Positions 6,681 through 30,320 of a stretch of 64,000 bases of DNA are shown here, piece by piece (position 1 is the first letter of the stretch; every line of letters starts with the position of its first letter). Under the pieces are notes generated by a model. That model was not told the DNA's origin, searched no databases, and was given only the letters and a program-made list of their open reading frames with translations. The DNA comes from Bradyrhizobium prioriisuperbiae (GTDB taxonomy: Bacteria; Pseudomonadota; Alphaproteobacteria; Rhizobiales; Xanthobacteraceae). The stretch is from contig NZ_CP135921.1 of the NCBI RefSeq assembly GCF_032397745.1, forward strand, positions 5,320,501-5,384,500, in the 5' to 3' direction. A program made the translations under genes and the position numbers.

Positions 6681-7334
6681 ATGGAACGTCTGCTGGAAAC
6701 CGAGCATGAGAACGAGCATATCGTTCTCGGCCTGCTGAATTCCGTCGAACATGACGGCGAGCGGTCGCAGCGCCATATCGCGGCCGAGCTTGGCATCGCG
6801 CTCGGTCTTGTCAACGCTTACCTCAAGCGCTGCATCAAGAAGGGCCTGGTCAAGGTCCACGATGCCCCGGCGCGCCGGTATGCTTACTACCTGACCCCGC
6901 AAGGCTTTGCGGAAAAATCCCGGCTCACGGTGCAGTACCTGTCGGATTCGTTCTCGTTCTTCCGCCTCGCCAAGAGCGATTGCGCGCGGGTGTTCGACGC
7001 GGCCAAGACGCGGGGCTTCAGCCGCCTGGTGCTGGCCGGCCAATCCGATCTCACCGAAATCGCCATTCTCTGCGCGGTCGAGGCGGCGGTGACGATCGTG
7101 GCCGTGGTCGATCCGCGCGGCGAGGGGGCGCGATTCATGGGCGTCGACCTTCGCAACTCCTACGCCGAGGTGACGGCGCCGTTCGATGCCGTGGTGGTGA
7201 CCGACGTCAGCCGTGCGAGCCAGTCCTACGATTCAGCAGTTGCGGTCTGCGGGCCCGAGCGGGTGCTGGCACCGGAGCTGCTGCGGTTGCGCGTGCCGGC
7301 CAATGCGGGAACGGCGACGGGGAGCGCGGCATGA
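6681..7334 (+). CDS. Winged-helix regulator with C-terminal Rossmann-like domain
   Basis: 217 residues. Residues 5-75 form a winged helix-turn-helix: SQRHIAAELGIALGLVNAYL is the recognition unit and RRYAYYLTPQGFAEKS the wing, as in MarR-like regulators found in polysaccharide loci. Residues about 100-205 (RGFSRLVLAGQSDLTEIAIL, then VTIVAVVDPRG and FDAVVVTDVS) look like a small alpha/beta Rossmann domain similar to the N-terminal part of PglD-type proteins; binding of a nucleotide sugar or related ligand is inference. The stop overlaps the start of the NusG-like gene (ATGA), so the two are translationally coupled. A promoter with two palindromes precedes it, suggesting autoregulation. Confidence 0.8.
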   Translation: MERLLETEHENEHIVLGLLNSVEHDGERSQRHIAAELGIALGLVNAYLKRCIKKGLVKVHDAPARRYAYYLTPQGFAEKSRLTVQYLSDSFSFFRLAKSDCARVFDAAKTRGFSRLVLAGQSDLTEIAILCAVEAAVTIVAVVDPRGEGARFMGVDLRNSYAEVTAPFDAVVVTDVSRASQSYDSAVAVCGPERVLAPELLRLRVPANAGTATGSAA

Positions 7335-7840
7335 GCGAGAGCGCGCGCTGGTATGTGGTGCAGACGCAGGTCAATGGTGAGGCCAGGGCCGCGCAGAATC
7401 TGATCCGCCAGGGCTTCGAGATTTACCTGCCACGCTATCTGAAGCGCCGGCGGCATGCCCGCAAGGTGGATGTCACCGCCAAGCCGCTGTTTCCGCGCTA
7501 CCTGTTCGTGGCCATCGACGTGGCGACGCAGCGCTGGCGCGCCGTCCAGTCGACCTTCGGCGTCTCGCACCTCGTCAGCAGCGGCGACGATCCGGCGAGC
7601 GTGCCTGAAGGCGTGGTGCGCGCGCTGAAGTCGCGCGAGGACACCAGGGGCTTCATCCAGGTGGATACGAAGCCGGCTTTCGCGCCGGGCGACAAGGTGC
7701 GGGTGTTGGCCGGGGCGTTCATGGACAATGCCGGCCTGTTCAACGGCCTGGCCGACCACGACCGGGTTGCAATCTTGCTCGACATGCTCGGCCGCAAGGT
7801 CCGCGTGCTGCTCGACGCAGATATGGTCGCCGCCGCGTAA
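7331..7840 (+). CDS. NusG/RfaH-like transcription elongation factor
   Basis: 169 residues from the ATG at 7331. The N-terminal NGN domain has WYVVQTQVNGEARAAQNL and KPLFPRYLFVAID, and a KOW-type C-terminal domain starts at about 115 (FAPGDKVRVLAGAFMDNAGL). Length and sequence fit the specialised NusG paralogues (RfaH, UpxY, TaA, LoaP classes) that load onto RNA polymerase at a leader element and suppress termination in long polysaccharide operons. The housekeeping NusG would sit with secE/rplK, which are absent here. It is the second gene of a two-gene regulatory unit, followed by a hairpin and an ops-like sequence and then by some 17 kb of polysaccharide genes in the same direction. Confidence 0.88.
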   Translation: MSESARWYVVQTQVNGEARAAQNLIRQGFEIYLPRYLKRRRHARKVDVTAKPLFPRYLFVAIDVATQRWRAVQSTFGVSHLVSSGDDPASVPEGVVRALKSREDTRGFIQVDTKPAFAPGDKVRVLAGAFMDNAGLFNGLADHDRVAILLDMLGRKVRVLLDADMVAAA

Positions 7841-7851
7841 GCGGCTTCATC

Positions 7852-7874
7852 GCGCGCCACGATGTGTGGCGCGC
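7852..7874 (+). terminator. Hairpin downstream of the NusG-like gene
   Basis: GCGCGCCAC (7852-7860), loop GATGT, GTGGCGCGC (7866-7874): a perfect 9-bp GC-rich stem starting 11 bases after the stop codon. It is followed by TTCGTCTCC rather than a clean T tract, so it may be a weak terminator or pause, which would suit a site overcome by the antiterminator encoded just upstream. Confidence 0.5.
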
Positions 7875-7928
7875 TTCGTCTCCGCTCCGACCAGGGAGCA
7901 AGCCGTGTGACGAGCAAGTCACCCGGAC

Positions 7929-7940
7929 TGCGGTAGCATG
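7929..7940 (+). promoter_or_regulatory. ops/JUMPstart-like element
   Basis: TGCGGTAGCATG matches the E. coli ops core as it occurs in JUMPstart leaders (GGCGGTAGCGTG) at 10 of 12 positions, including the invariant CGGTAG. It lies 88 bases after the NusG-like gene and 89 bases before galE, the position expected for an element that recruits an RfaH-like factor to polymerase transcribing a polysaccharide operon. The match is seen in the sequence; function in this lineage is inference, since ops elements are best known from gammaproteobacteria. Confidence 0.5.
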
Positions 7941-8029: not shown

Positions 8030-9013
8030 ATGACTGTCCTGGTCACCGGCGGCGCCGGTTATATCGGCAGCCACGTGGTGCATGATCTGATCGACCGTGG
8101 CGAGCGTGTGGTTGTGCTTGACAATCTTGCGACCGGATTTCGCATCGCAGTGCCCGCCGAAGCGCCGCTCGTCGTTGGTGATGTCGGTGATGGCGCGCTC
8201 GTCGCCGACTTGATTGCCGAGCACGGCGTCAGCGCGGTGATGCATTTCGCGGCGTCCACGGTGGTGTCGGAATCCGTTGCCGATCCCGCTGCATATTACC
8301 GCAACAACACGATGGGTTCGCTGGCGCTGTTCGAGGCCGCAGTACGGGGCGGGGTGAAGCATGTCGTGTTCTCCTCCACTGCTGCGGTCTACGGTAATCC
8401 GGTGCAACAGCCGGTTGGCGAAGACGTGCGACCCGCGCCGTTGTCCCCCTATGGCACGTCGAAGCTGATGACCGAGACGATGCTGCGCGAAATCGCCGCC
8501 GCCGCCGGGCTCTCCTATGTGGTTCTGCGTTATTTCAACGTCGCAGGTGCTGATCCGAAGGGCCGCATCGGGCAGTCGAGCAGAATGGCGACACATCTCG
8601 TCAAGGCTGCGGTGCAGGCGGCGCTCGGATTGCGTGATCATCTCGATATGTTCGGCACCGATTATCCCACGCCGGATGGCACCTGCGTGCGCGACTATAT
8701 CCATGTCAGCGATCTGTCAGCGGCCCATCTTGCGGCGCTCACGTATTTGCGCGGCGGCCGCGAGAGCGTGACCCTGAATTGCGGCTATGGCCGCGGCTAT
8801 TCGGTTCGCGAGGTGATTGCGGCGGTGAAGCGCGTGTCCGGGGTGGACTTCCACGTCGCCGAGCGGCCGCGTCGACCGGGCGATCCTGCCGCTATCGTTG
8901 CCGACGCGCGCGCGATGCAGCGCGAATTGTCCTGGACTGCGGCCCATGATGACATCGACACCATCGTCTCCCATGCGCTGGCATGGGAGCGGCAGTTAAT
9001 GATGCAGGCATGA
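8030..9013 (+). CDS. galE: UDP-glucose 4-epimerase
   Basis: 327 residues from the ATG at 8030, with ribosome site AGCAGGA upstream; an upstream TTG-initiated extension is not supported. The NAD-binding motif GGAGYIGSH lies at 7-15, the catalytic SST at 115-117 and YGTSK (Tyr141, Lys145) complete the extended-SDR triad. It ends with the family phrase RRPGDPAAIVADA. It interconverts UDP-glucose and UDP-galactose in the cytoplasm, supplying the glycosyltransferases downstream. As first structural gene after the ops-like element, it opens the polysaccharide operon. Confidence 0.9.
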   Translation: MTVLVTGGAGYIGSHVVHDLIDRGERVVVLDNLATGFRIAVPAEAPLVVGDVGDGALVADLIAEHGVSAVMHFAASTVVSESVADPAAYYRNNTMGSLALFEAAVRGGVKHVVFSSTAAVYGNPVQQPVGEDVRPAPLSPYGTSKLMTETMLREIAAAAGLSYVVLRYFNVAGADPKGRIGQSSRMATHLVKAAVQAALGLRDHLDMFGTDYPTPDGTCVRDYIHVSDLSAAHLAALTYLRGGRESVTLNCGYGRGYSVREVIAAVKRVSGVDFHVAERPRRPGDPAAIVADARAMQRELSWTAAHDDIDTIVSHALAWERQLMMQA

Positions 9014-25227: not shown

Positions 25228-25245
25228 AGCGCCTCACTGCCGGCC

Positions 25246-26208
25246 TCATTGCTCCTGCAGCTCCATCGCCGCCGATCCCTTCGCGGCTTTCTCGGCGCTG
25301 AAGACCCAGACCAGCCCGCCGATCGCCCCGACCGCGAACGACACCGCACCGAACAGGATCGACACCACGAGGCCATCGGCCTGCGGCAGACCCGCATAAC
25401 CGAATGCCACCATCATGGTCGCTTCGCGCACGCCCCAGCCGGCGATCGAGATCGGCAGCATGGTGATCAGCATGATGGGCGGGATCAGCAGGAACACCTG
25501 GGGAAATGTCGCCGGTGCCGCAATCGAGCGCACCACGGCCCAGGCGATCACAACGGCGAGAACGTGGACCGCCAGCGACAGCACGGCGATTTTCGGGCCG
25601 CTCTGGCGACTGAAAATCACCTTGTTGGCGATCACCGCGCAGGCATGAATATGCTTGGTCGGCAGCCACGCGGTCAGCCAGGCCCATGACAGCCGGCCAA
25701 AGGCGAGAAACGCCAACCCCGCGGCCAGCGCGCCGAAATCGATCAGCGACAGCGCGGCGCGGCCGCGGGCATCGCCGATCAGCTGATAACTCCAGGGCAG
25801 GCTGGCGACGATCAGGATGGCCAGTGCCACGAGGCCGATCGCGCGGTCCACCAGCACCGAATAGGTTGCGGCGCGCCAGCCGGCGCCGGTGCGGCTCACC
25901 AGCCACAGCCGCACGGCATCGCCGCCGATCGACGACGGCAGGCTCTGGTTGAAGAATGCCCCGATCATGTTGAAGCGCAGCGCCTGGGCAGCCGAAAGCG
26001 GAGCTCCGCACAGCGCGGTAATTTCCCGCCACCGCAGCGCGCCGAGCAGGATCTGCACCAGCGTCATGGCGATCGCCACCGCGATCCAGCCGAGGTTGAT
26101 CTGGTTCATGCGCGCCAGGATGGCAGACACATTGACCCCGCGCAGCGCGAGATACAGCAGCGCCCCGGACACCAGGATTTTGAGCGCAACGAGCAGGATT
26201 TGGCGCAT
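25246..26208 (-). CDS. Flippase-like membrane protein (UPF0104/LPG-synthase TM family)
   Basis: 320 residues with about eight membrane segments. Family marks: ALRGVNVSAILARM near 25, FFNQSLPSSIGGDAVRLWLV near 95, and PISIAGWGVREATMMVAFGY near 255. Relatives are the membrane part of MprF and stand-alone proteins often found beside glycolipid or hopanoid glycosyltransferases; lipid or lipid-linked sugar translocation is proposed for them. Encoded opposite to both flanking operons, so it has its own promoter in 26209-26557. Confidence 0.8.
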   Translation of the reverse strand: MRQILLVALKILVSGALLYLALRGVNVSAILARMNQINLGWIAVAIAMTLVQILLGALRWREITALCGAPLSAAQALRFNMIGAFFNQSLPSSIGGDAVRLWLVSRTGAGWRAATYSVLVDRAIGLVALAILIVASLPWSYQLIGDARGRAALSLIDFGALAAGLAFLAFGRLSWAWLTAWLPTKHIHACAVIANKVIFSRQSGPKIAVLSLAVHVLAVVIAWAVVRSIAAPATFPQVFLLIPPIMLITMLPISIAGWGVREATMMVAFGYAGLPQADGLVVSILFGAVSFAVGAIGGLVWVFSAEKAAKGSAAMELQEQ

Positions 26209-26557
26209 GATGGGCCGACGGGGCCTTCGGTCAGGAGGAAACAGCCAGAATGCCGAGAAATCTGGCCGATCGGCGGCTGAATTGACGCGATTTGACGCGT
26301 TTCTGCCCGCGCGGCGGTCACTGCCGCGGAACAGGCGCTAGGTATGGCTTTCAAGGGCTTATGGCAAGTGCAAAGCCGGCCTCCCGGGCGTTACGGGGGA
26401 CCAGTTCCGGGGCTTTGGGCGGCCTTCTGGAAGGTTTCTTGTCCCCATCCCGACGCTCCCCCGGCAATGTTCCCGGGCGTCCCTTGCAGCCGCCGCGGGC
26501 TGACGGTTAAAGAGGGCCGGGGCGGCAGGCCCCGGCTTTTGGGAGTCTGGGCAGCGG
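26209..26557. other. Intergenic region between two divergent genes
   Basis: About 350 GC-rich bases. It contains a direct repeat TTGACGCGA/TTTGACGCG at 26282-26299, two copies of CCCGGGCGT (near 26386 and 26473), and ends in the hairpin listed separately. It must carry the promoters of both flanking genes. A 76-codon rightward open frame (26344-26574) exists, but its composition (Pro/Gly/Trp/Arg) and lack of a ribosome site argue against a gene. Confidence 0.45.
26516..26540 (+). terminator. Rho-independent terminator-like hairpin ahead of the UDP-sugar dehydrogenase
   Basis: GCCGGGGC (26516-26523), loop GGCAG, GCCCCGGC (26529-26536), followed by TTTT: a perfect 8-bp stem with a U-tract on the plus strand. 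There is no rightward gene upstream for it to terminate, since the neighbour runs leftward. It ends 17 bases before the GTG at 26558, so it fits a leader attenuator or a structure controlling translation. Confidence 0.6.
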
Positions 26558-27879: not shown

Positions 27880-28896
27880 ATGGCTGAACAGGCGATACTG
27901 GTGACCGGCGCGGCGGGCTTCATTGGCTTCCACGTCGCGCAACGATTGTTGCAGGCGGGCAAGACCGTGGTCGGTCTCGACAACCTCAACGACTACTACG
28001 ATCCGTCCCTCAAGGACGCGCGACTCAATGTGCTGCACAACGATCCGCGCTTCCAGTTCGTGAAGATGGATCTTGCGGACGAAGGCGGCATGGACCGGCT
28101 GTTCGCGCAGCACAAGTTTCCGGTGGTGATCCACCTCGGCGCCCAGGCCGGTGTGCGTTACTCGCTGCAAAATCCGCGCGCTTATATCTCGTCGAATCTG
28201 CAGGGCTTCGGCAACGTGCTCGAGGGCTGCCGCCACAATGGCTGCCGGCATCTGTTGTATGCGTCGTCGTCGTCGGTCTATGGCGCCAACACCAAGCAGC
28301 CGTTTTCGGTGCACGACAATGTCGATCATCCGATCAGCCTGTATGCGGCGACCAAGAAATCCAACGAGCTGATGGCGCATTCCTACAGCCATCTGTTCCG
28401 GCTGCCGACCACGGGGCTGCGCTTCTTCACGGTCTACGGGCCGTGGGGACGCCCCGACATGGCGATGTACATCTTTACGAAGGCGATCCTGGAAGGACGC
28501 CCGATCAAGCTGTTCAACCAGGGGCAGATGCAGCGTGATTTTACCTATGTGGACGATATTGCCGAGGCCATCGTCCGCCTGACTGAGCGTCCGCCGCAGC
28601 CCGATCCGTCCTGGTCTGGCGACAAGCCCGATCCGGGTACCAGCACGGCGCCCTGGCGCGTTTACAATATCGGCAACAACAAGCCGGAACAGCTGATGCA
28701 TGTGGTATCGGTTCTGGAGCAGGCGCTCGGGCAAACCGCCCAGAAAGAGCTTCTGCCGATGGAGCCGGGCGACGTGCCATCCACTTTCGCCGACGTCGAC
28801 GATCTGATGCGCGATGTCGGTTTTCGTCCATCGACGTCCATCGAAGACGGCATTGCCAACTTCGTGCGTTGGTATCGTGACTATCACAAGCTTTGA
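27880..28896 (+). CDS. UDP-glucuronate 4-epimerase-type SDR
   Basis: 338 residues. [19 protein letters not shown] and [18 protein letters not shown] are typical of the family that interconverts UDP-glucuronate and UDP-galacturonate (LspL/CapI type). The triad is ASSSSVYG and YAATKKSNE, and [14 protein letters not shown] is diagnostic. It is the second gene of the sugar-nucleotide operon and 38 bases after the dehydrogenase. It supplies an acidic sugar for lipopolysaccharide core or O-chain. Confidence 0.9.
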
Positions 28897-28907
28897 CGGC
28901 GGGATTC

Positions 28908-30320
28908 ATGTCTGATCGTATTATTCCCTTGATCATGTGCGGCGGCGCGGGAACACGGCTGTGGCCAGCCTCGCGCGAGGGACGGCCGAAGCAGTTTCTG
29001 CGGCTGTTCGGCGCGCTGTCGACATTTCAGGAAACGATGAAGCGGGTGTCGGATCCCTCGTTGTTCGCGCGGGTGATCGTCATCACCAACGCGGCCTATC
29101 GCTTCATGGTGCTGGAGCAGCTCGCCGAAATCCGGCTCGAGGCCGACGTGCTGCTGGAGCCGGCGCGCCGTGATTCCGGCTCGGCCATCGCCGCCGGCGC
29201 CGCGTTCGCGCGCACCCGTGATCCCGAGGCCGTGGTGCTCGCGCTGGCCGCCGATCACGTGGTCAAGGACACGCCCGCCTTCGTCGACGCCTGCCGCCGT
29301 GGCCTGGTTGGCGCAAATGCCGGCCGCATCGTCACGTTCGGCGTCGAGCCCGAACATCCCTCGACCGAATACGGCTACATCCGCCCCGGCGAGACCATCT
29401 CGGGCGATATCCGCGCGGTTGCGAAGTTTGTCGAGAAGCCGGACGCGGCGACCGCGGCCGGTTATGTCAGCGACGGTTATCTCTGGAACAGCGGCAACTT
29501 CATGTTCCGCGCCGAGACGCTGCTCGATGAGTACGCCAAGTTCGATGCCGACAGCGTCGAGGCGGTCACATCGGCGGTGAGCAAGGCGGGGCGCGATCTC
29601 GGATTCGTCACCCTCGACAAGGAATCGTTCGAGAAGGCGCGATCCATTTCCATTGACTATGCAGTGATGGAGAAGACCTCGCGGGCCGCGGTGGTGGCGG
29701 TCGCCTGCGGCTGGTCCGATGTCGGCTCCTGGCGCGCTGTCTGGGAATTGTCGCCCAAGGACGACGACGGCAATGTCACACAGGGCCAGGCCGTGTTCGA
29801 AGGCTCGCGCAATTGCAACGTGTCGACCGACAAGACCCTGGTCGCGCTCGAAGGCGTCGAAGACCTGGTCGTGGTCGCTACCCAAGATGCCGTGCTGGTG
29901 TCGCGCCAGAAAGATGCCGGCGGCCTGAAGCGGCTGGTCGGCAGACTGCGGACCATCGCGCCGCAGGTGACGGAAGATCATCCCAAGGTGCATCGTCCCT
30001 GGGGATCGTATCAGTCGCTCGACATCGGCGAGCGCCACCAGGTCAAGCGCATCATCGTCAAGGCGGGCGGGCGGCTGTCGCTGCAGAAGCATCACCATCG
30101 CTCCGAACACTGGATCGTGGTGCGCGGCGCGGCGCTGGTCACGGTGAACGAGATGCAGAAGGTCGTGCACGAAAACGAGTCGATTTACATTCCGATCGGC
30201 GCCACCCACCGGATGGAAAATCCCGGCAAGATTCCACTGGAATTGATCGAGGTGCAGACCGGTAGTTATCTCGGCGAAGACGACATCGTGCGCATCGAGG
30301 ACGACTACAAGCGCTCGTGA
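28908..30320 (+). CDS. manC: Mannose-1-phosphate guanylyltransferase / mannose-6-phosphate isomerase
   Basis: 470 residues from the ATG at 28908 with ribosome site GGCGGGA; an in-frame TTG at 28893 overlaps the previous stop and would add five residues. The N-terminal pyrophosphorylase signature is IMCGGAGTRLWPASREGRPK, with EKPDAATAAGYVSDGYLWNS downstream. The C-terminal cupin carries the type II isomerase/regulatory part (HRPWGSYQSLDIGERHQVKR, LQKHHHRSEHW). It makes GDP-mannose for glycan synthesis, including a possible GDP-fucose branch. Confidence 0.92.
   Translation: MSDRIIPLIMCGGAGTRLWPASREGRPKQFLRLFGALSTFQETMKRVSDPSLFARVIVITNAAYRFMVLEQLAEIRLEADVLLEPARRDSGSAIAAGAAFARTRDPEAVVLALAADHVVKDTPAFVDACRRGLVGANAGRIVTFGVEPEHPSTEYGYIRPGETISGDIRAVAKFVEKPDAATAAGYVSDGYLWNSGNFMFRAETLLDEYAKFDADSVEAVTSAVSKAGRDLGFVTLDKESFEKARSISIDYAVMEKTSRAAVVAVACGWSDVGSWRAVWELSPKDDDGNVTQGQAVFEGSRNCNVSTDKTLVALEGVEDLVVVATQDAVLVSRQKDAGGLKRLVGRLRTIAPQVTEDHPKVHRPWGSYQSLDIGERHQVKRIIVKAGGRLSLQKHHHRSEHWIVVRGAALVTVNEMQKVVHENESIYIPIGATHRMENPGKIPLELIEVQTGSYLGEDDIVRIEDDYKRS

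Follow-up and report, generated by a model that had tools for sequence, protein, structure and literature searches.

A candidate RfaH/ops-like pair with a hairpin-ops leader in an alphaproteobacterial polysaccharide locus

Genes and features at the locus

The window, i.e., the whole stretch of DNA analysed here, comprises 64,000 nt of Bradyrhizobium prioriisuperbiae (GCF_032397745.1, NZ_CP135921.1, positions 5,320,501-5,384,500, forward strand). In the part considered here, a regulator gene and a gene for a NusG-family protein precede a run of polysaccharide genes, with a predicted stem-loop and an ops-like core lying in between:

6681-7334, + strand: P0002, MarR_EPS-like winged-helix regulator (TIGR04176, 64.3 bits; cutoff 88)
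7331-7840, + strand: P0001, proposed factor, an RfaH-type member of the NusG family (TIGR01955, 124.4 bits)
7903-7926, + strand: predicted stem-loop, 7903-7911 pairing with 7918-7926 with one mismatch, loop at 7912-7917
7930-7937, + strand: ops core GCGGTAGC, ops positions 2-9, assigned by sequence match and comparison of loci
7939-7940, + strand: TG, ops positions 11-12, the pause point expected by analogy (T in 62/70 and G in 60/70 loci)
8030-30320, + strand: polysaccharide gene run, the proposed target, from galE (8030-9013) to GMP/PMI (28893-30320), with 25228-26557 excepted

The end of P0002 overlaps the start of P0001 by 4 nt. Among the NusG-family models, P0001 scored best with that of RfaH (TIGR01955, 124.4 bits), ahead of UpxY (70.4 bits), NusG (64.4 bits) and LoaP (45.2 bits), though it stays under the TIGR01955 cutoff of 144.5 bits, a cutoff reached in none of 385 genomes of the class. 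The host genome carries three NusG-family genes. The gene run at 8030-30320 includes an acyltransferase, an ABC-transporter ATPase and several glycosyltransferases, and is presumably read as a single transcript; a search of a plasmid collection returned eight records, with matches at galE only. A scan around the site found no consensus promoter or terminator. We noticed a strong 9-bp GC-rich hairpin without a T run at 7852-7874 (7852-7860 with 7866-7874), 11 nt past the P0001 stop; several close relatives (L005 and L008 among them) carry a comparable inverted repeat. Possibly, the hairpin is an attenuator or an RNA end that a loaded polymerase has to pass.

The 12 bases TGCGGTAGCATG at 7929-7940 (+) agree with enterobacterial ops (GGCGGTAGCGTG) at 10/12 positions, the mismatches being positions 1 and 10, such that the full 12-base enterobacterial sequence is absent from this site. 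Its core GCGGTAGC starts at 7930, 89 nt past the P0001 stop. Both the 10/12 agreement and the placement between the RfaH-like gene and galE had been claimed in a sequence-only reading of this DNA, and both are borne out, with the P0001 stop at 7840 and the galE ATG at 8030. Matches of such quality are expected in the window (with up to three mismatches, 108 were found vs 114 expected; 12 of the 108 had two or fewer), so the match by itself proves nothing, and its significance derives from position and conservation, not from the match score. Exact GCGGTAGC occurs twice in the window, at 7930 and 57967, and a CACCC arm precedes the copy at 7930 only.

Conservation of the core and the stem-loop

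A search of 296 family genomes for relatives of P0001 was positive in 76 at E ≤ 1e-20. The locus set was assembled from 80 of 81 family places and 29 named loci (Bradyrhizobium, Afipia, Methylocystis, Pseudolabrys, Rhodopseudomonas and others), giving 109 loci and, after removal of nine duplicates, 100. A search from 10 nt ahead of the gene's stop to 330 nt past it found exact GCGGTAGC at 70/100 distinct loci (53/80 family loci and 17/20 further named loci), at a median distance of 69 nt after the stop of the RfaH-like gene. The same sequence was found in only 2/100 control windows on the opposite strand of the identical stretch, 0/100 inside the gene, 1/99 per strand upstream and 1/98 at 700-1040 nt downstream. 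Presence of the core varied with identity to P0001: 14/14 loci at 70% or above, 32/33 at 60-70%, 15/19 at 55-60%, 2/8 at 50-55%, 4/10 at 45-50% and 3/16 below 45%. A chance ops match in a GC-rich leader, to which the expected number of such matches in the window lends some credit, is extremely improbable in view of the excess over these control windows, the arm-swap result given below (0/10,000) and the sites away from the gene.

The first search required CGGTAGC only and left the G at ops position 2 free; this G nevertheless preceded CGGTAGC in 70/72 occurrences, the other two having T. Position 1 was T in 62/70 loci and G in 8/70, and position 10 was variable. Among 53 non-redundant loci, in which the exact core was obligatory, columns -10 to -6 carried 1.7-2.0 bits and ops positions 11 and 12 carried 1.3 bits each, whereas the flanks drift (at most 0.29 bit, mostly below 0.2, in columns -60 to -26 and beyond +15). 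By comparison of loci, then, the conserved unit is larger than the 12-base match first noted and comprises a predicted stem-loop together with the ops core.

The 3' arm of the stem-loop in the window contains a near-invariant TCACCC; across loci, the 3' arm is close to TCACCCGGACT, and the 5' arm and loop are variable. We compared the pairing of own and swapped arms in the 53 non-redundant loci, which had been picked by the core alone, with pairing ignored. Own arms paired at a mean of -14.76 kcal/mol vs -11.75 (sd 0.30) for swapped arms, and 0/10,000 permutations were as low. The CCC region was paired with upstream bases in 52/53 loci, with apical loops of 3-12 nt and 4 to 32 nt separating the paired positions of the two arms. 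The last paired base stood directly before the core in 26/53 folds and one base earlier in 6/53, the others being 3-7 bases off. A fold of the complete 195-nt leader was uninformative (z -0.91).

Covariation analysis is consistent with pairing of the arms. In a plain MAFFT alignment (A1), where the signal was weaker, both-side changes occurred in 8/12 pairs (25/500 shuffles reach that), further pair types were not above shuffles (110/500), and covariation was 0.191 vs 0.136 (0/500). Alignment A3 gave both-side changes in 9/12 pairs and covariation of 0.208 vs 0.134 (sd 0.011) when shuffled, and A6, composed of 50 sites outside the training set, gave 8/12 and 0.240 vs 0.135 (sd 0.012); the sites of A3 and A6 were found by or fitted to the model and hence lean towards pairing. 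Structures shifted by 1-3 columns had lower pairing and covariation scores in A1, A3 and A6. Additionally, we observed that the 5' arm GGGTGA contains GGTGA, resembling a ribosome-binding sequence, and that the 3' arm TCACCC presumably resembles the anti-Shine-Dalgarno end of 16S rRNA.

A conserved repeat adjoining a regulator gene could also be an operator. Under that explanation, GGGTGA...TCACCC would be bound by a dimeric DNA-binding protein, either the MarR-like P0002 or a different one, leaving the core incidental; this would suit a 3' arm that is near-invariant beyond pairing needs. We consider it quite improbable: the spacing of the arms is variable (4 to 32 nt), unlike that of a fixed dimer site, the arms covary, core and arm are equally conserved and a fixed distance apart, and sites elsewhere in the genome are tied to the NusG-like gene. 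The stem-loop could, alternatively, be the recognition site itself, bound as RNA by the NusG-like protein in the manner of LoaP, which recognises an RNA hairpin, with the core merely a pause. The conserved, covarying stem-loop with its near-invariant 3' arm would fit such a role; yet the loop and 5' arm vary while the eight core bases hold, and the protein is closer to RfaH than to LoaP (124 vs 45 bits), making this explanation improbable as well. The preferred reading, a hairpin-ops leader in which the core would be the loading site, is taken up below.

Sites away from the gene and spread over the class

A covariance model of the element (R2) was run on the 296 family genomes. At E ≤ 1e-4, a cut set after inspection of the list, sites were present in 65 genomes, i.e., in 64/76 with a P0001 relative vs 1/220 without; at 1e-3 the counts were 66/76 vs 3/220, and any match at 0.1 occurred in 127/296 genomes. 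The co-occurrence of 64/76 vs 1/220 is partly circular because most training sites came from these genomes, and we therefore put weight on non-adjacent sites instead. In 25 genomes, the gene is present but the core does not lie within 330 nt of it (27 such loci, minus those of G170 and G175, which have the core at another locus). Non-adjacent sites were found at 1e-4 in 14/25 of these genomes vs 1/220 genomes without a P0001 relative (Fisher p = 2.9e-15), and in 16/25 at 1e-3; the other 9/25, with the gene but without an adjacent core, had no site at E ≤ 1e-3. In the sole exception among the 220 (G074), the site lies shortly after the gene of a different NusG paralogue. Sites in family genomes without a found paralogue were those of G288 (E = 2.0e-4) and G025 (E = 2.7e-4).

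The exact core was present in 19/20 regions examined, which include four weaker sites (those of G259, G248 and G288 and the second match of the host genome) as well as the second site of G081. Pfam was run on 20 proteins from 16 regions, 18 of them encoded downstream of the element, in the first long frame or up to ~3 kb further on. Of the kinds found in polysaccharide clusters were 17/18 downstream proteins: DegT aminotransferases, asparagine-synthase-type proteins, glycosyltransferases, an acyltransferase, a UDP-glucose dehydrogenase, NDP-sugar epimerase/dehydratases, a TupA-like ATP-grasp protein, PF13440 and a GFO/IDH/MocA oxidoreductase. The eighteenth (L140) is a Band_7 protein, and of the two upstream proteins, one was without a Pfam match and one had a weak PrmA match. 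Overall, these comparisons show that the candidate element tracks RfaH-like genes, and that it is mostly tied to polysaccharide genes, in both cases whether adjacent or elsewhere in the genome.

Two candidates were set aside. The second R2 match of the host genome (G000:C1:8346877-8346910, 23.2 bits) was not counted, as GGGCGGCT replaces the core, and L145 (G288), with an exact core but a poor stem in a genome with a single NusG, was left out as support. Outside the window, the host genome encodes a second, divergent NusG paralogue (G000:C1:8347612-8348022, - strand), 26% identical to P0001, and the coreless 23.2-bit match sits ~0.7 kb downstream of it. Duplications were also observed: in Bradyrhizobium retamae (L092, 4525-4578), a second, altered copy with core GCTGTAGC (28.6 bits) lies ~240 nt after the first, and in G190 (L133, 2550-2630), the ops core is tandem-doubled, with GGCGGTAGCGTTTCGCAA occurring twice after a single stem-loop.

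We surveyed 385 genomes of the class, counting as RfaH-like any gene with at least 86 bits to TIGR01955, a cut placed in the gap from 86.3 to 73.8 bits. Sites at E ≤ 1e-3 were present in 46/87 genomes with an RfaH-like gene vs 6/298 without, and at 1e-5 in 36/87 vs 1/298; 41/87 genomes with an RfaH-like gene had no site at 1e-3. The six genomes with a site and without a found paralogue (G329, G422, G480, G522, G574 and G590) have a single NusG-domain gene in five cases and none found in one, which is 74% complete. We noticed that the site of G329 (L168) is a good hairpin-ops element of 34.3 bits with an exact core, in a genome 99% complete with one NusG-domain gene found; possibly, the factor has been lost or the site has another reader.

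In a survey of 398 genomes of the phylum, a site was present in 11, eight in the class and three in one family outside it. The exact core was present in 35/35 class- and phylum-level loci examined and in 50/50 model-found sites of A6, counts from a model whose scoring favours the core. Ops positions 11 and 12 at the class and phylum level were T in 29/30 and G in 23/30. The arm-swap comparison of the class and phylum sites gave 0/10,000, again for model-found sites that lean towards pairing. Of ten genes downstream of these sites, five were sugar/polysaccharide genes, two were ABC-transporter parts, one was a radical SAM gene and two had no match. As far as sequence can tell, the element occurs across Alphaproteobacteria.

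Known systems and the proposed loading mechanism

The element shares with enterobacterial ops the core GCGGTAGC, mostly TG at positions 11-12 and a presumed polysaccharide-operon leader; also alike are the accompanying NusG-family paralogue of the RfaH kind and, in some genomes, an element away from the gene of the factor. In contrast to the enterobacterial system, position 1 is T or G, position 10 is variable, the conserved arm ahead of the core is a different one, the gene of the factor usually lies directly upstream of the element, and K10 and R73 are not kept. As in the JUMPstart RNA (RF01707), a predicted stem-loop abuts the ops core in what would be the leader of polysaccharide genes, but the stem sequence of the alphaproteobacterial element differs. 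The part of PMC2864571 covered lists JUMPstart for Gammaproteobacteria. The Rfam JUMPstart model scored 60 bits on the E. coli galF-rfbB leader and had no match at the site in the window; on 19 + 16 non-E. coli loci, it matched L052 only, at 22.5 bits (cutoff 35). Rfam on 1.1 kb around the site returned weak matches only, far under cutoffs, and our model R1 reached 12.7 bits (E = 0.37) on the E. coli leader.

Like LoaP, UpxY and TaA, P0001 is a dedicated NusG paralogue whose gene stands within or beside the cluster that it presumably serves; by sequence, it is closer to RfaH than to LoaP or UpxY. The sections of PMC7593976 covered here place RfaH in Alphaproteobacteria, note envelope genes next to clusters CL2-CL8 and, for CL4, an adjacent HTH regulator, call the recruitment of cluster-encoded NusG paralogues unknown, and name no ops site in Alphaproteobacteria. 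Among the listed titles and abstracts, drawn largely from open-access literature, there was no report of ops or JUMPstart in Alphaproteobacteria. On the best reading of the sequence comparison, the element is an alphaproteobacterial variant of the hairpin-ops leader, apparently undescribed in the literature covered.

Among the residues of RfaH that contact ops (K10, H20, R23 and R73; PMC5995543, in the part covered), R23 was kept in 62/76 relatives of P0001 and the H20 position was H or N in 72/76. The K10 position was Q or H in 70/76 and K in 1/76, and the R73 position was R in 6/76. Other RfaH positions were kept (Q24 in 76/76, T72 in 75/76, R16 as K or R in 64/76), and the position of E48, which is named for autoinhibition, was A, R, K or S in 72/76, E in none counted, and K in P0001. 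Of six aligned proteins from genomes without a site at 1e-4, three had Q at the H20 position (vs 0/70 elsewhere) and three had N at the R23 position (vs 3/70 elsewhere), with kinship ignored in both comparisons. We consider it very likely that the site loads the RfaH-like protein via partly remodelled contacts.

The sequence-only reading had suggested an RfaH/ops-like pair in this polysaccharide locus, and had proposed looking for an element kept while its flanks drift in relatives with the NusG-like gene. Such an element is what the comparison found (70/100 loci vs 0-2 per 98-100 control windows), and the suggested pair is further supported by the non-adjacent sites (14/25 vs 1/220) and by P0001 being closest to RfaH. 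We hold it to be highly likely, from these comparisons and by analogy with E. coli RfaH, that the site serves to load the RfaH-like protein whose gene immediately precedes it; the locus is best read as an RfaH/ops pair from Alphaproteobacteria whose hairpin-ops leader resembles JUMPstart.

In E. coli, ops bases G2-C9 of the non-template strand form a hairpin on which RfaH docks, with polymerase paused at U11 and holding a 10-bp hybrid (PMC11001881 and PMC5995543, in the parts covered). The conserved core is exactly G2-C9, the bases that pair in that hairpin. Pausing, a DNA hairpin, docking and antitermination at the site are what we infer from E. coli RfaH. Once polymerase is transcribing the polysaccharide leader, the stem-loop would form in the nascent RNA; P0001 would then dock on the non-template DNA hairpin of the core, remain on the polymerase and exclude NusG/Rho, whereby the long gene run would be completed. 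Given a pause at U11 with a 10-bp hybrid, the hybrid would span G2-U11, and a stem whose pairing extends to the base preceding G2 would lie at the upstream edge of the hybrid, where hairpins of the his-pause type sit. We conjecture that an RNA stem-loop at the edge of the hybrid could prolong the pause or block backtracking. More tentatively, and with somewhat more doubt than belief, we suggest jointly that an RNA hairpin in the exit channel and a non-template DNA hairpin act on the same paused polymerase across Alphaproteobacteria, and that JUMPstart and the present element share a hairpin-ops ancestor predating the split of Alpha- and Gammaproteobacteria; if such an ancestor existed, the RfaH-ops pairing would be ancient and not an enterobacterial invention.

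The element offers a concrete candidate loading site for alphaproteobacterial RfaH-like proteins, along with a large natural set of variants in which protein contacts have changed and eight DNA bases have held. The role of the pre-ops stem-loop, common to JUMPstart, becomes directly testable. Furthermore, the element would predict O-antigen and exopolysaccharide targets for the RfaH-like proteins that rhizobia and related bacteria encode, and many alphaproteobacteria may use their own version of the RfaH gene-cluster switch.
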